From positions 124,001-188,000 of the forward strand of contig NC_014501.1 of assembly GCF_000147335.1 (NCBI RefSeq): a stretch of DNA of 64,000 bases, read 5' to 3'. Made by a program: the position numbers and the translations under genes. The DNA is from Gloeothece verrucosa PCC 7822. Its GTDB lineage: Bacteria; Cyanobacteriota; Cyanobacteriia; Cyanobacteriales; Microcystaceae. Shown piece after piece: positions 25,114 through 55,958 of this stretch (positions are counted from its first letter, which is position 1; each line of letters begins with the position of its first letter). The notes under the pieces were generated by a model. The model made no database searches and had not been told where the DNA came from. It was given only the letters and a program-made list of their open reading frames with translations.

Positions 25114-26430
25114 ATGTTTGTTTTAGAATTCAAGGTCGAAGCTAAAAAACAACAATATCAAGCGATAGATGATGCTATTCGCACTTCTCAATTTATTCGT
25201 AATAAATGCTTAAGGTATTGGATGGATAATAAAGGAGTGAACAAGTATGATTTGTCAGCGTATTGTAAAATTTTAGCTCATGACTTTAAATTCGCTTCTG
25301 AATTAAATTCTCAAGCAAGGCAAGCAAGCGCCGAAAAAGCCTGGTCATCAATATCACGATTCTTTGATAACTGTAAAAAAAAGATACCAGGAAAGAAAGG
25401 TTATCCTCGCTTTAAAAAGTTTTCTCGTTCAGTTGAGTATAAAACAACAGGATGGAAACTTATTACACCTAAGACTATTAGCTTCAGTGACAAGAAAGGC
25501 ATTGGAACACTCTCTTTAAAAGGGACTTGGGACTTAGCTTATTTCAAAGATTCTGATATTAAACGAGTTAGACTTATTAGACGTGCCGATGGCTATTACT
25601 GTCAGTTCGTTCTTTCTTGTGAGGTTACTGAAGATATTAAACCATCTGGTAAATGTATTGGCTTAGATGTAGGATTAGCTTCTTTCTACACCGACCAACA
25701 GGGTTCGAAAGTTGATAACCCTATATTTTTAAGGAAGTCTGAAAAGCGGTTAAAAAGGCTGCAAAGAAGATTATCGAAGAAGGTCAAAGGGTCTTCTAAT
25801 AGACAAAAAGCCAGACAGAGATTAGCCAAAGTTCATCTTAAAGTAAGTAGGCAGCGTAAAGACTTTGCTGTAAAGTTAGCCAGGTGCGTAGTTCACTCTA
25901 ACGATGTGATTGCTTATGAGGATTTAAGAATAAAAAACTTGGTTAAAAATCACTGTTTAGCTAAGAGTATTAACGATGCTGCGTGGTATCAATTTAGAGA
26001 ATGGATAGAGTATTTTGGGAGCAAGTTTAGTAAAATAACTGTTGCTGTGCCACCTCAATACACAAGTCAGAATTGCTCTAATTGTGGTGAAACTGTTAAG
26101 AAGTCTCTATCAACAAGGACTCATGTTTGCTCATGCGGTGCTTGTTTAGATAGAGATGAAAATGCAGCACTTAATATTTTAAAACTCGGATTAAGTACCG
26201 TAGGGCATACGGGATCTAAAGCTTCTGAAAGTGAAATTCTTTCAGCGTTAGCTACAGCTAATGGGGGAGAAGATACCTCTACTTTGATAGGAGTAATTTT
26301 ATCTAAGCAAGTATCCTCTGTGAACCAAGAATCCTCGACCATGCGCGGGCGAGGAGTGTCAAAAGAGTTAAAATTGGGCGACTCACAATTGATAAAGATA
26401 AGTTATGATTCGACCGATCACACCCGATGA
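25114..26430 (+). CDS. tnpB: RNA-guided endonuclease TnpB (stand-alone IS1341-type)
   Basis: The 438-aa frame encodes a TnpB nuclease with all catalytic parts: an N-terminal helix-turn-helix/wedge region (~1-120), RuvC-I GLDVGLASF (Asp185), RuvC-II AYEDLRIKNL (Glu269), a zinc ribbon CSNCG...CSCG and RuvC-III CLDRDENAALNIL (Asp346/348). It probably cuts DNA guided by an omega-RNA made from the 3' end of the element. No TnpA (Y1 transposase) is present, so mobility would need help in trans. The element's right end lies near 26362, inside this frame. The frame has no stop there and continues 68 nt, 26 of them into the acetyltransferase gene. Confidence 0.9.
   Translation: MFVLEFKVEAKKQQYQAIDDAIRTSQFIRNKCLRYWMDNKGVNKYDLSAYCKILAHDFKFASELNSQARQASAEKAWSSISRFFDNCKKKIPGKKGYPRFKKFSRSVEYKTTGWKLITPKTISFSDKKGIGTLSLKGTWDLAYFKDSDIKRVRLIRRADGYYCQFVLSCEVTEDIKPSGKCIGLDVGLASFYTDQQGSKVDNPIFLRKSEKRLKRLQRRLSKKVKGSSNRQKARQRLAKVHLKVSRQRKDFAVKLARCVVHSNDVIAYEDLRIKNLVKNHCLAKSINDAAWYQFREWIEYFGSKFSKITVAVPPQYTSQNCSNCGETVKKSLSTRTHVCSCGACLDRDENAALNILKLGLSTVGHTGSKASESEILSALATANGGEDTSTLIGVILSKQVSSVNQESSTMRGRGVSKELKLGDSQLIKISYDSTDHTR
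26200..26362 (+). ncRNA. Probable omega-RNA 3' part and right end of TnpB element
   Basis: The right-end hairpin has arms CCTCG (26333-26337) and CGAGG (26350-26354), preceded by GAAT and followed by AGTGTCAA (26355-26362). This is a typical end of cyanobacterial tnpB elements. In known systems the RNA covering this end binds TnpB, and the bases just beyond serve as guide; here the guide would start near 26361. The 5' limit given is arbitrary. Confidence 0.6.
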
Positions 26431-27430: not shown

Positions 27431-28783
27431 TTAAAATCCTTTGACTAACTTCACCATAAAAAAACCGTCCATAAGATGCAGATGAGGTAAAACCTTGATC
27501 CACCCGGGTGTTGTCGCAAAAGCGGCAGCAGGAGAAGAGGAAAGAGGCGGCTGTATTTGCCAATTCGGATGATGATGGAGAAAGGCTTCTATGAGTTTTT
27601 CATTTTCTAATGGGTTCAGGGTACAAGTGGCATAAACTAATACCCCTTTCGGTTTGATCCAACTAGCCGCTTCTTCTAGGAGTTCTCTCTGTAAAACAGA
27701 AAGTTCCTCGATCTTTTCGGGTGTTTGTCGCCAACGAATATCAGGCCGTTTGTGCAGGGTTCCTAGTCCTGAACAAGGCGCGTCTATGAGTACGCGATCA
27801 GCCGTTTCTCGAAATTGAGTTAATTGACGACTGTCACCGCTACAGATCTTAATAGAGTTTAGTTGGAGACGTTGGGCATTTTGTTGTACTTTCCGAAGTC
27901 GAGAAGCTACGCGATCACAAGCCCAAATTGTTCCTCGATCCTGCATCAGTTCAGCGATGTGAGTGGTTTTTCCTCCAGGGGCGGCACAAGCATCAATAAT
28001 AATTTCTTCAGGTTGTGGATCTAATAGATGAGTCACTAATTGGGCGCTACTATCTTGTACTGTCCACCACCCCTCCTCAAACCCAGGTAATTGAGAAATT
28101 GATCGGCTTCCCCCTATTAATCTTAATGCTTGGGGGAGGTGAGGGACAGGTAAAACTTTTACCCCTGCCTTGGAAAAACCCAACTCGACCTCCTCAACGG
28201 TGGTTTTTAAAAGGTTTACCCTGATATCGATCATAGCGGGTTGGTTAAACCATTCGCAGAGTTTTTCGGTTTCGCCTTCTCCCCATTCTTCTAACCACTG
28301 TTGGACGATCCAATTGGGAAAACTATGTAAGACTCCTAAACGATTAATCCTATCACTGGGTAATTCTAAAGGATCTTTCCCTTGTGCTTGGATACGGTCA
28401 TACTGTCTTAATATTCCATTGACGACTCCGGACAGTTTTCCGAGTTGATTTTTCTTGGCGAGTTCTACGCTGGTATTCACGGCGGCAGAAACCGGAATTT
28501 GATCTAAATAACGCAGTTGATATAATCCTATTTGCAGAATGATGCGTAGGTCCGGGGGTTGCTGAGTGGCTGTTTTTTTACCGAGTTGTGTGATTAATTG
28601 GTCTAGTGTTCGCACTCGGCGTACAATGCCATAAACTAATTCTGTGACTAAGCCGCGATCTAAACTTTTTAGTTGTGCTTGCTTGAGTCCCTGATCTAAG
28701 GCGATATCAGTATAAGCGTCTTTTCGATAAATGTCTCGAAGAATTGTTACCGCTAATTGTCGAGGATCGGTTTCTAATTTCAT
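27431..28783 (-). CDS. rsmB: 16S rRNA (cytosine-967-C5)-methyltransferase RsmB
   Basis: 450 aa. The NusB-like RNA-binding domain (~1-140, LAVTILRDIYRKDAYTDIAL, GIVRRVRTLDQLI) is followed by a Rossmann methyltransferase (~150-450). SAM site IIDACAAPGGKTTHIAELM, motif IV DAPCSGLGTLHKRPDIRW and motif VI YATCTLNPLENE are visible; the cysteines in PCS and TCT are the release and catalytic residues. It modifies C967 of 16S rRNA. A heptamer repeat array lies just upstream of the ATG (28789-28830). It is the first gene of a two-gene unit with the TerB-like protein. Confidence 0.95.
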   Translation of the reverse strand: MKLETDPRQLAVTILRDIYRKDAYTDIALDQGLKQAQLKSLDRGLVTELVYGIVRRVRTLDQLITQLGKKTATQQPPDLRIILQIGLYQLRYLDQIPVSAAVNTSVELAKKNQLGKLSGVVNGILRQYDRIQAQGKDPLELPSDRINRLGVLHSFPNWIVQQWLEEWGEGETEKLCEWFNQPAMIDIRVNLLKTTVEEVELGFSKAGVKVLPVPHLPQALRLIGGSRSISQLPGFEEGWWTVQDSSAQLVTHLLDPQPEEIIIDACAAPGGKTTHIAELMQDRGTIWACDRVASRLRKVQQNAQRLQLNSIKICSGDSRQLTQFRETADRVLIDAPCSGLGTLHKRPDIRWRQTPEKIEELSVLQRELLEEAASWIKPKGVLVYATCTLNPLENEKLIEAFLHHHPNWQIQPPLSSSPAAAFATTPGWIKVLPHLHLMDGFFMVKLVKGF

Positions 28784-28788
28784 TAAAA

Positions 28789-28830
28789 GTCATTAGTTAT
28801 TAGTCATTAGTTATTAGTCATTGGTCATTA
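28789..28830. repeat. Heptamer array (GTCATTA type), 6 units
   Basis: Six head-to-tail 7-mers, GTCATTA or GTTATTA with one variant GTCATTG, immediately upstream of rsmB. It is the complement of the TAATGAC array at 30486-30562. Confidence 0.85.
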
Positions 28831-28938
28831 GAGGATTTAGGAGGTTTGCTGGTCGATTAGTGACGCTTTCAGTCGTGATTGATTTAAGGGTTGACTTTGA
28901 TGCTTAAACTAAGGACTAACGACCACTGACTAATGACT
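28831..28938. repeat. Left arm of ~108-bp inverted repeat flanking midA
   Basis: Inverted and imperfect copy of 30322-30439. A 25-nt core (28863-28887) matches 30374-30398 exactly in reverse complement, and most of the remaining arm is alignable. The arms end in TAATGAC-type heptamers. Confidence 0.8.
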
Positions 28939-28943
28939 AACTA

Positions 28944-30104
28944 TTAATATTGTAATCCTTTGAGAGATAACTGTTTTTCTGATGGGGTTAATCCTTTACA
29001 TTGTATTAATACCCCAAAGCCGCCTAAACCGCTTGGATCGATCAACTGATGTAAAGCGTCTCGGCGTTGAATCACTTCCCCAAAATTATACTGGCCACTG
29101 GAAAGTTCAGCAAGGCGATCTCCTAATCCCAAGGACATTAAAAACATTCCTTGTTTTGTGCTACCTAATTTTTCTAATCCACATAATTCGCCTTGACGTT
29201 CTAGGGCGGTAAAATCTATGTGAGTGGTTATATCTTGAAGTCCAATATTGATATAAGGGTCGTGGTGATGATGATGTTTATAGTAACAGTTTAATGTGCC
29301 GCGATAGCGTTGGGGATGGTAGTATTTATGGGCGGGATACCCATAGTCAATGGTTAATAAGTACCCTCGTTTTAGCTTTTTAGATAGGGTTTCTAACCAA
29401 GATAAGGCGGCTGTATTGACTTCGGTCTGATATCCTTCGCGATAAGCATCAGAAGGTAGTTCTACTCCCACTAACTGAAAATATTGATTGAAGTCTTGTG
29501 TGGGTTTGTCGATTATCTCTTGAAATTGATTATCAGAGTAAGTTACATAAATTTCTTTTAACTCTCCTCCTTGTATGGCTAGTCGATGAACGGGGAAAGC
29601 ATCTACTAATTCATTACTAAAGGCACAGCCAATAATAGATTCATCTGCTATGTCTTGCCAAGTTTTCCACTCGATTTTAATGCCTTGAGCAAGTTCTGAT
29701 TGTAACTGTTCTTTTTGTCTTGCTATCAAGTCTAGGCTTTGTTCTATTATTTGATATTCTAATTTTTCTAATAAATCAGGAGCAGTTTTTCTAAAATAAT
29801 TTAAAATGTCTGATGCCAATAATCCTAACCCGGCTCCCATTTCCAGCAAAATAAAATGAGAGGGCTGCCCTAAAATTTCCCACATTTCTATAAATTGTTT
29901 AGCTAATAATTCCCCAAAATCAGGGCCTAATGAAGAGGAGGTAAAATAATCTCCTGACTTGCCGATTTTCGCTTTTTCCGAGGAATAATAACCGAATTGA
30001 GGATGATAAAGCACTAGCTGCATATACTCAGAAAAACTGATTCTATGTAGAGGAGATTGATGAATTCGTTCAGTAATAGTCTTAATCAGCGTTGATTCAA
30101 TCAT
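28944..30104 (-). CDS. midA: SAM-dependent methyltransferase, MidA/NDUFAF7 family (DUF185)
   Basis: 386 aa. The family signature is clear: RISFSEYMQLVLYHPQFGYY, KIGKSGDYFTSSSLGPDFGE, the SAM loop ILLEMGAGLGLLASDIL, and SNELVDAFPVHRL followed by LLTIDYGYPAHKYYHPQRY. Mitochondrial MidA/NDUFAF7 methylates an arginine of a complex I subunit, so in cyanobacteria an NDH-1 subunit is a reasonable but unproven target. A run of five histidines (YYKHHHHHDP) lies at the usual family variable loop. The gene is bracketed by long inverted repeats (28831-28938 and 30322-30439). Confidence 0.9.
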   Translation of the reverse strand: MIESTLIKTITERIHQSPLHRISFSEYMQLVLYHPQFGYYSSEKAKIGKSGDYFTSSSLGPDFGELLAKQFIEMWEILGQPSHFILLEMGAGLGLLASDILNYFRKTAPDLLEKLEYQIIEQSLDLIARQKEQLQSELAQGIKIEWKTWQDIADESIIGCAFSNELVDAFPVHRLAIQGGELKEIYVTYSDNQFQEIIDKPTQDFNQYFQLVGVELPSDAYREGYQTEVNTAALSWLETLSKKLKRGYLLTIDYGYPAHKYYHPQRYRGTLNCYYKHHHHHDPYINIGLQDITTHIDFTALERQGELCGLEKLGSTKQGMFLMSLGLGDRLAELSSGQYNFGEVIQRRDALHQLIDPSGLGGFGVLIQCKGLTPSEKQLSLKGLQY

Positions 30105-30321
30105 TTTAACCTAAATATTCCTTAAAAGGCTTAAAAAATAGATGAGCTTGTCCTAAAATTATTAGATGAGAAATTGACGTAAAAATTAGGAAGTTTATGA
30201 ACTTAGAAATAGATAACCGGAAAAAACACACAGAACATCATAATCATTCCTGTATTAAGTGTTAAGAAGAAAGGGTAACTACAAAAAGAAATGATAACCT
30301 ATTTTTTCATAAGAGAGTGAT

Positions 30322-30439
30322 TAGTCATTGGTCATCAGTCCTTGGTACTTAGTTTAAGCGTCAAAGTCAACAATTAAATCAATCACGACTGAAAGCGTAA
30401 CGAATCCACAAGCAAACCCTCCGAGTACCTCTAATGACC
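30322..30439. repeat. Right arm of ~110-bp inverted repeat flanking midA
   Basis: Inverted partner of 28831-28938; see that entry. It is followed by more TAATGAC heptamers. Confidence 0.8.
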
Positions 30440-30463
30440 CATGACCCATGACTAACGACTAAT

Positions 30464-30482
30464 GGGCGCAAGCCTTGCGCCC
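30464..30482. repeat. Perfect 9-bp-arm palindrome inside heptamer cluster
   Basis: GGGCGCAAG-C-CTTGCGCCC sits between heptamer units. A similar GC-rich palindrome lies beside the heptamers at 55972-55991. Confidence 0.8.
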
Positions 30483-30485
30483 CTA

Positions 30486-30562
30486 CTAATGACTAATGAC
30501 TAACGACTAATGACTAATGACTAATGGCTAATGGCTAATGACTAATGACTAATGACTAATGA
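30486..30562. repeat. Heptamer array CTAATGA, 11 units
   Basis: Eleven consecutive 7-mers: eight CTAATGA, two CTAATGG and one CTAACGA. It ends 33 nt before the aspS promoter -35. It resembles the short tandemly repeated repetitive (STRR) heptamers described for filamentous cyanobacteria. Confidence 0.9.
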
Positions 30563-30595
30563 CCAAAATGCTAGATAATGGGCAATGCGTCTAAA

Positions 30596-30659: not shown

Positions 30660-32447
30660 ATGAGAACTCATTATTGTGGCGAATTAAGAGCAAGTGATAT
30701 AGACAAAACCGTGACCCTGTTCGGGTGGGTAGATCGTTATCGGGATCATGGGGGGGTCATCTTTGCCGATCTACGCGATCGCACGGGAGTGGTGCAAATT
30801 GTCAGTGATTCGCAACGGACACCTGAGTCTTATCAAGCCGCCGCAACTCTACGCAACGAATATGTGATTAAAGTAGAAGGGAGAGTGAGCAAACGTCCTC
30901 CAGAATCGCTCAATCCTAAAATTCCTACTGGTGAAGTCGAAATTTATGCCGATAGCATTGAAATTCTTAATGGAGTTAATAAACAACTTCCTTTTGTAGT
31001 GTCCAGTGAAGAGGCCGAATTAGTCCGCGAAGAAGTCCGCCTAAAATATCGCTATTTAGACTTGAGACGTGAACGCATGATGAACAATCTCAAATTGCGT
31101 CACCAAGTGGTTAAGGCGATGCGGCGTTATTTAGAAGATCAACAAAATTTTATTGAGGTAGAGACTCCTATTTTAACCCGTTCCACCCCTGAAGGAGCCA
31201 GAGACTATTTAGTTCCCTCTCGGGCTAACCCCGGCAAATGGTATGCTTTACCTCAGTCTCCCCAATTATTTAAGCAGTTGTTGATGGTATCGGGAGTAGA
31301 TAGATATTATCAAATCGCGCGGTGTTTTCGAGATGAAGATTTAAGGGCCGATAGACAACCCGAATTTACTCAATTAGATATGGAAATGAGTTTTATGTCT
31401 CTTGATGAGATTTTAGAACTCAATGAGGGGTTAATTGCTCATATTTTCAAAAGCACTAAAAATATAGATATTCCTCTGCCTTTACCCCGTCTTACATATA
31501 CTGATGCTATGGGAAAATACGGGACAGATCGCCCGGATACTCGCTTTGGATTAGAGTTAGTTGACGTTTCCGAAATTGTCAAAGATTGTGCGTTTAAAGT
31601 TTTTTCTGGGGCGGTGAGTAGTGGCGGCGTGGTAAAAATTTTACCGATTCCTGAAGCGGCTAACGTTATTTCTAATGTACAGATTAAACCCGGTGGAGAG
31701 TTATTTAAAGAAGCCGCCGAAGCCGGAGCAAAAGGAATTGCTTATATTCGCATTAAAGAAGGCAATGAATTAGATACCATTGCGGCCATTAAAGATAATC
31801 TGAGTGAGGAGCAAAAACAGCAATTAATCGAAAAAACAGGAGCTAAACCCGGTTATTTATTGCTGTTTGGGGCTGGAGATGTAGACACAGTTAATAAATC
31901 TTTAGCTCGGTTACGGTTAGTGGTTGGGGAAAAATTAGGGTTAATTGATAAAAACAAAATTAACCTACTGTGGGTCACAGATTTCCCGATGTTTGAATGG
32001 AATGCCGAGGAGAAGCGTTTAGAAGCGTTACACCATCCATTTACCGCGCCTAAACCCGAAGATTTACATGATTTATCTCATGCTAGAGCTTTGGCTTATG
32101 ATATGGTTTTTAATGGGATAGAAATCGGTGGGGGCAGTCTGCGGATTTATCAGCGAGACATTCAAGAAAAAGTGTTTGCCACCATTGGATTATCGATGGA
32201 AGAAGCTTACAGTAAATTTGGCTTTCTTCTAGAAGCATTTGAGTATGGAACGCCGCCTCATGGGGGTATTGCTTACGGGTTAGATAGATTAGTCATGCTG
32301 TTAGCCGGTGAAGAATCTATTAGAGATGTGATTGCTTTTCCGAAGACTCAACAAGCCAGTTGTTTACTCACAGAAGCCCCTTCTACAGTTGAACCTAAGC
32401 AATTGAAAGAATTGCACATTGCTTCGACTTTTAAACCTAAATCATAA
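30660..32447 (+). CDS. aspS: Aspartyl-tRNA synthetase
   Basis: Charges tRNA-Asp. The 595 aa are the normal bacterial length: OB-fold anticodon domain (~1-105, [20 protein letters not shown]), class II motif 1 around [20 protein letters not shown], motif 2 [20 protein letters not shown], the bacterial GAD insertion (~290-415) and motif 3 in [20 protein letters not shown]. Many cyanobacterial AspRS also charge tRNA-Asn for the GatCAB route, which cannot be judged here. Its own promoter is at 30596-30623. No strong Shine-Dalgarno precedes the ATG. Confidence 0.98.
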
Positions 32448-55425: not shown

Positions 55426-55941
55426 TTAATCTTTTAATCCTTGTCGTAATTGCCCCGTGAGATGGACAACTTCAGGGATGATTAGTTTTTCTAAAGCTAA
55501 TTTAACTGCGTTGGTAGAACCCGGCAGAGAAAAAATCAGTTTTTGACGATAAATGCCAGCAATTGCCCTAGACGCTATGGCTCTTGAGCCAATTTCTTGA
55601 TAACTCAGCCAACGAAATAGTTCTCCAAATCCGGGTAAAGTTTTCTCTAATAATTGAACCAGTGCATCATAGGTGGTATCCCTTGGCGCAATTCCGGTTC
55701 CTCCGTTAAAAATAACCACTTCTATTTCAGGACGAGTGCTTAAAAGTGTTAACTGTGCCTGAATTTGTTGAGGTTCATCGGGAATTAAACTATAAAATTC
55801 GATCTGATGTCCCGCTTGTTGTAGTAATTGCTCGATCAGTTGTCCACTACGATCGCTCTCGCGGGTACGAGTATCACTAACTGTAATTACAGCACATTTA
55901 AGCGATACCTTCTCTTGGTCTTGATGGGGAATTCGAGTCAT
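55426..55941 (-). CDS. moaB: Molybdenum cofactor biosynthesis protein B
   Basis: 171 aa. MPT-binding fold: CAVITVSDTRTRESDRSGQL, VIFNGGTGIAPRDTTYDALV and IFSLPGSTNAVKLAL are the MoaB/MogA signatures. MoaB/MogA adenylylates molybdopterin before Mo insertion. The first codon (55941) lies inside a TAATGAC heptamer: the upstream bases are CTAATGACTAATGACTA then ATGACT. Homologues begin at the same place. No clear Shine-Dalgarno is left upstream, so initiation may be weak or leaderless. Confidence 0.92.
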   Translation of the reverse strand: MTRIPHQDQEKVSLKCAVITVSDTRTRESDRSGQLIEQLLQQAGHQIEFYSLIPDEPQQIQAQLTLLSTRPEIEVVIFNGGTGIAPRDTTYDALVQLLEKTLPGFGELFRWLSYQEIGSRAIASRAIAGIYRQKLIFSLPGSTNAVKLALEKLIIPEVVHLTGQLRQGLKD

Positions 55942-55958
55942 TAGTCATTAGTCATTAG
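55936..55958. repeat. Heptamer array overlapping moaB start codon
   Basis: GAGTCATTAGTCATTAGTCA and TTA: three heptamers of the GTCATTA type whose complement contains the moaB start codon. Confidence 0.85.

Follow-up and report, generated by a model that had tools for sequence, protein, structure and literature searches.

The gene midA of Gloeothece verrucosa PCC 7822 is flanked by two inverted arms, which are probably two copies of one low-copy, heptamer-bounded, non-coding intergenic unit, the second copy having been made by ectopic copying. The inverted repeat is real and for the most part reflects ordinary repeat biology; nothing at the locus points to a gene that moved or flipped. The analysis covered a window of 64,000 nucleotides (the whole stretch of DNA under study; contig C1, positions 124001–188000) and the complete source genome of 7.84 Mb in 7 contigs.

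Structure of the inverted repeat around midA

The gene midA lies between rsmB (−) and aspS (+). The left arm is located after midA and before rsmB, and the right arm between two divergent starts. The features of the locus are as follows.

27434–28783, −: rsmB, 16S rRNA methyltransferase with NusB domain
28788–28831, −: (TAATGAC)n array of ~6 units, toward the rsmB start codon (Tandem Repeats Finder; heptamer scan)
28799–28940, +: left arm, whole homologous stretch; hairpin
28832–28908, +: core copy 1 (two copies in the genome)
28909–28941, +: degenerate heptamer array, extending to the midA stop codon
28944–30104, −: midA, SAM-dependent methyltransferase (PF02636), 386 aa, intact
30317–30352, −: degenerate heptamer array of the right arm, midA side (heptamer scan)
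30321–30463, −: right arm (by alignment to the left arm); hairpin
30349–30418, −: core copy 2 (BLAST, 90% identity to copy 1 over the best 70 nt)
30430–30563, +: heptamer array on the outer side of the right arm, broken up by a palindrome (Tandem Repeats Finder; heptamer scan)
30464–30482, no strand: GGGCGCAAGCCTTGCGCCC palindrome, lying within that outer array
30660–32447, +: aspS, aspartyl-tRNA synthetase

An IS605 OrfB/TnpB-like open reading frame is present at 25114–26430 (PF01385, PF07282), beside a GNAT gene.

The initial annotation had described the sequences around midA as imperfect reverse complements, and this was borne out by alignment of 28799–28940 with the reverse complement of 30321–30463 (83% identity over 143 aligned positions, with a single 1-nt gap). 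The longest identity is the 25-nt core already reported, which is exact at 28863–28887 (+) and 30374–30398 (−), does not occur elsewhere in the window and gave 0 matches in 100 shuffles. The length of ~110 bp given for the arms was too short; the homologous stretch is ~143 nt (142–143 nt per arm) and is non-coding. Each arm has two components, heptamer arrays (TAATGAC)n on the outside and a ~75-nt core inside. The heptamers had been placed at one end of each arm only, but they are found on both sides of each core and in opposed orientation (AGTCATT...core...AATGACT), so that each arm is an imperfect palindrome with mutually inverted arrays on either side of the core. The identity by position is 85% in the core and 80% in the heptamer flanks; the divergence of the arms is about 15–20% overall and ~15% in the core. 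The non-heptamer core aligned with a score of 98, whereas none of 2000 shuffles scored above 26, and a search of the whole genome with the 73-nt core returned the second copy at E = 7e-21 and nothing else below E = 0.49. Chance is excluded as the source of the homology by these shuffles and by the genome-wide E-value.

An inversion switch, in which recombination between the arms would flip midA and thereby alter its expression, was one of the explanations put forward initially. The two arms do stand in inverted orientation around exactly one gene, and their perfect stretch of 25 nt is close to the shortest length on which RecA-type recombination acts. However, a scan of 17 proteins encoded between 15356 and 42283 revealed one IS605 OrfB/TnpB-like protein but no invertase or other site-specific recombinase, and the arms are neither long nor near-identical: with identity running for at most 25 nt and the divergence given above, they lack the uniformity that frequent exchange would be expected to produce. 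Moreover, midA is a housekeeping-type gene, and the single assembly holds one orientation of it. A switch at this locus is therefore very improbable.

Both arms are predicted to form stable hairpins, with z-scores of −4.1 for the left (28781–28945) and −4.4 for the right (30316–30463), and each folds better than all of its 200 shuffles. Such hairpins would be expected if the arms were a conserved regulatory RNA or a terminator used twice, but neither an Rfam match nor a terminator-like site (terminator scan) was found in them, the arms are not conserved in any of 49 other genomes of the family, and their two positions are not equivalent, one following midA ahead of rsmB and the other separating divergent starts. 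We consider a regulatory RNA or terminator extremely unlikely.

Copy number of the core and of the heptamers

The two components of the arms differ in their distribution. The ~75-nt core occurs exactly twice in the genome, on the two sides of midA and 1.4 kb apart, and it gave only chance matches in the 49 other family genomes. A partial match in family genome G047 was rejected, as it is located inside a trmD-like coding sequence, and with two genome copies and only chance matches elsewhere the core was rejected as a dispersed family. In contrast, the exact TAATGAC 14-mer was found in 263 places in the genome, compared to 1 for the reversed control, and the exact 21-mers numbered 113 here versus 0–3 in each of the 49 other genomes. 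The ~75-nt core alone is thus specific to the midA locus, the heptamer part being a genome-wide repeat. The initial annotation had suggested that many unrelated single copies of an arm, together with no strain in which midA is inverted or absent, would speak against a unit linked to midA; a BLASTN search with a whole arm does yield many matches, but all except two are heptamers, which occur in hundreds of places, and the core occurs in two only.

STRR repeats are characterized by 7-bp units arrayed in tandem at many intergenic sites of a single genome, and this is what is found here. The core is not heptameric, and the arm is thus not an STRR repeat over its whole length. The outer array of the right arm contains 11 clean heptamer units at 30487–30563, and a further heptamer array is present in the window at 55937–55957. 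The motif class of the GGGCGCAAGCCTTGCGCCC palindrome has two other copies in a 2.06-Mb sample of the chromosome (L213:13203–13221 and L233:17546–17564); near 1320 kb (L292), a related palindrome is nested in a different heptamer array. The reversed heptamer used as control, (CAGTAAT)n, is abundant in genus g7 (G006, G014, G022 and G048–G056), with 57 forward in G052, and its exact 21-mer is absent from the genome of Gloeothece verrucosa PCC 7822. The heptamer in use differs from genus to genus.

Inverted repeats over short distances are no rarity in this genome. Self-comparison of 1.66 Mb yielded about seven other inverted pairs of 60–253 nt within 6 kb, most of which belong to heptamers, to dispersed repeats or to probable paralogous coding sequences. 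At chromosome positions 4524662–4528944 (L271), three repeats of 110–212 nt, two direct and one inverted, form a GGTTGATCC-rich local cluster that has no counterpart in the rest of the 1.66 Mb sampled.

Orientation of the heptamer arrays

The 2.06-Mb sample contains 79 arrays of at least 3 units, and these follow a strict layout relative to open reading frames (mechanical calls of at least 90 aa, not annotated genes). The arrays adjoin the ends of the reading frames, 41 of the 42 distances to a 3' end being 24 nt or less. TAATGAC reads toward the nearest reading frame in 66 of the 79 arrays (p 1e-9), at 5' and 3' ends alike; the calls at 5' ends are biased, because TAATGAC supplies ATG codons. 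The count for the 3' ends alone (34 of 42 arrays pointing to the reading frame, p 7e-5) should be free of such bias, because both orientations supply stop codons. Selection on start and stop codons or a mutational mechanism are candidate causes of this orientation.

Opposed pairs of arrays within 250 nt were encountered 15 times in the '-+' arrangement, (AGTCATT)n-core-(AATGACT)n, and 0 times as '+-' in the 2.06 Mb. When the whole genome was searched for the exact pattern, the numbers were 16 loci and 0 loci, respectively, and the exact paired pattern was absent in either orientation from the other 49 family genomes. The cores of these heptamer-bounded units are mostly unrelated to each other, and most have no second copy in the sample. 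The exception is one core family at three dispersed heptamer-bounded loci, near 657, 1129 and 1320 kb (L291, L290 and L292), in which the homology continues through the heptamers; its copies have diverged, the 1320-kb member being noted as such.

The main rival to ectopic copying is a pair of independent insertions, one on each side of midA, of a non-autonomous, MITE-like element that has a very low copy number and whose terminal inverted repeats are the heptamer arrays. The form of the unit agrees with this: both arms carry opposed heptamer arrays at their ends, and the units are intergenic and hairpin-forming with a core of ~80–150 nt, while the second unit family has three dispersed copies. 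However, the members of a MITE family would share their core, whereas the units here mostly have cores without relation to one another, and the midA core lacks the multiple dispersed copies with a common internal sequence that are typical of MITEs, having only its two neighbouring ones. Since single arrays point toward genes, any two that share an intergenic region will face each other without the need for a transposon, and the opposed pairs follow simply from arrays that point at the genes on either side. No transposase lies next to the arms, whose ends merge into heptamer arrays that would mask any target-site duplication. The notion of a single mobile family that has the heptamer pairs as its terminal inverted repeats is weakened by the mostly unrelated cores and by the single arrays obeying the same orientation rule. 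Two separate insertions are on balance unlikely, even if not implausible. Two independent insertions of one repeat had been one of three options offered at the outset, and it came nearest: there are two copies of one heptamer-bounded unit and another such unit is dispersed, but local copying is the likelier origin.

midA and its neighbourhood in relatives

The gene midA was found in 38 of the 39 genomes searched, the sole miss being a genome that is 78% complete. The closest matches of midA are in genus g10 (64% identity), and the same genus holds the closest matches of rsmB (72–73%). A search of the genome contigs with midA gave distant relatives only. The surroundings of midA differ between genera, with no neighbourhood conserved across genera, and the aspS–rsmB adjacency was absent from all 29 relatives' loci examined.

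These data bear on the first of the initial options, that a composite element brought midA into the rsmB–aspS interval. In favor of this, the gene is enclosed by inverted repeats, and relatives conserve neither the neighbours of midA nor the adjacency of rsmB and aspS; however, the neighbourhood of midA differs between genera everywhere, and its non-conservation therefore carries no weight for a mobile composite. For the same reason, the differences in gene order, there is no empty site for comparison. The near-universal presence of midA and the closest genus it shares with rsmB argue against a transfer, and the arms encode nothing, have no other copies and are not transposase-encoding IS copies of the kind that flank a composite transposon. 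Movement of midA by such a unit is hardly credible.

Comparison with known repeats

STRR heptamers of cyanobacteria are 7-bp units in intergenic, hairpin-capable tandem arrays, described at hoxW, hupS-hupL and other loci (PMC2670836). The arrays studied here share all of these properties, but the unit is TAATGAC, inverted array pairs enclose unique cores, and one core is duplicated in inverted orientation around a gene. Direct repeats of the heptamer TAACTGA are found genome-wide in intergenic regions of Beggiatoaceae and Cyanobacteria, often directly before a start codon and oriented toward it; one array in Cyanothece PCC 8801/8802 is reversed close to the upstream ORF (PMC4679880). The genome-wide intergenic arrays and the start-codon half of the orientation rule are alike in both cases, whereas TAATGAC is no rotation of TAACTGA or of its complement, and its arrays point at stop-codon ends as well (34/42). 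With MITEs and REPIN-like elements (PMC3116915) the units have in common that they are small, palindromic, intergenic and non-coding; unlike these elements, they mostly have no common internal sequence, the midA core is limited to two copies, and no transposase has been identified for them.

Likely history of the locus

The history that we favor begins with a unit composed of a heptamer array, a ~75-nt core and an inverted heptamer array. This unit would have been copied ectopically from one flank of midA to the opposite flank. The adjoining heptamer arrays, present around midA in both orientations, may have primed the event, either through gene conversion or through template switching. The event would be old enough to account for ~15–20% divergence, and midA would be a bystander. 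Putative effects on midA, rsmB or aspS would be those that any extragenic hairpin or UTR-located heptamer repeat may have. As most cores have no second copy, either such copying is rare or old copies decay; a core with two copies fits a very low-copy transposable unit as well as recombination. A broader proposal is that heptamer arrays act as exchangeable ends, such that the sequence between inward-facing arrays may be copied locally in inverted orientation or to distant loci. We regard this as speculative and rather improbable; if true, simple heptamer repeats would drive the spread of intergenic cassettes.

Taken alone, the arrangement around midA is an oddity in the evolution of repeats, but it led to the strict genome-wide layout of the heptamer arrays. 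This layout bears on the origin and the tolerance of STRR repeats, a long-standing question in cyanobacteria.
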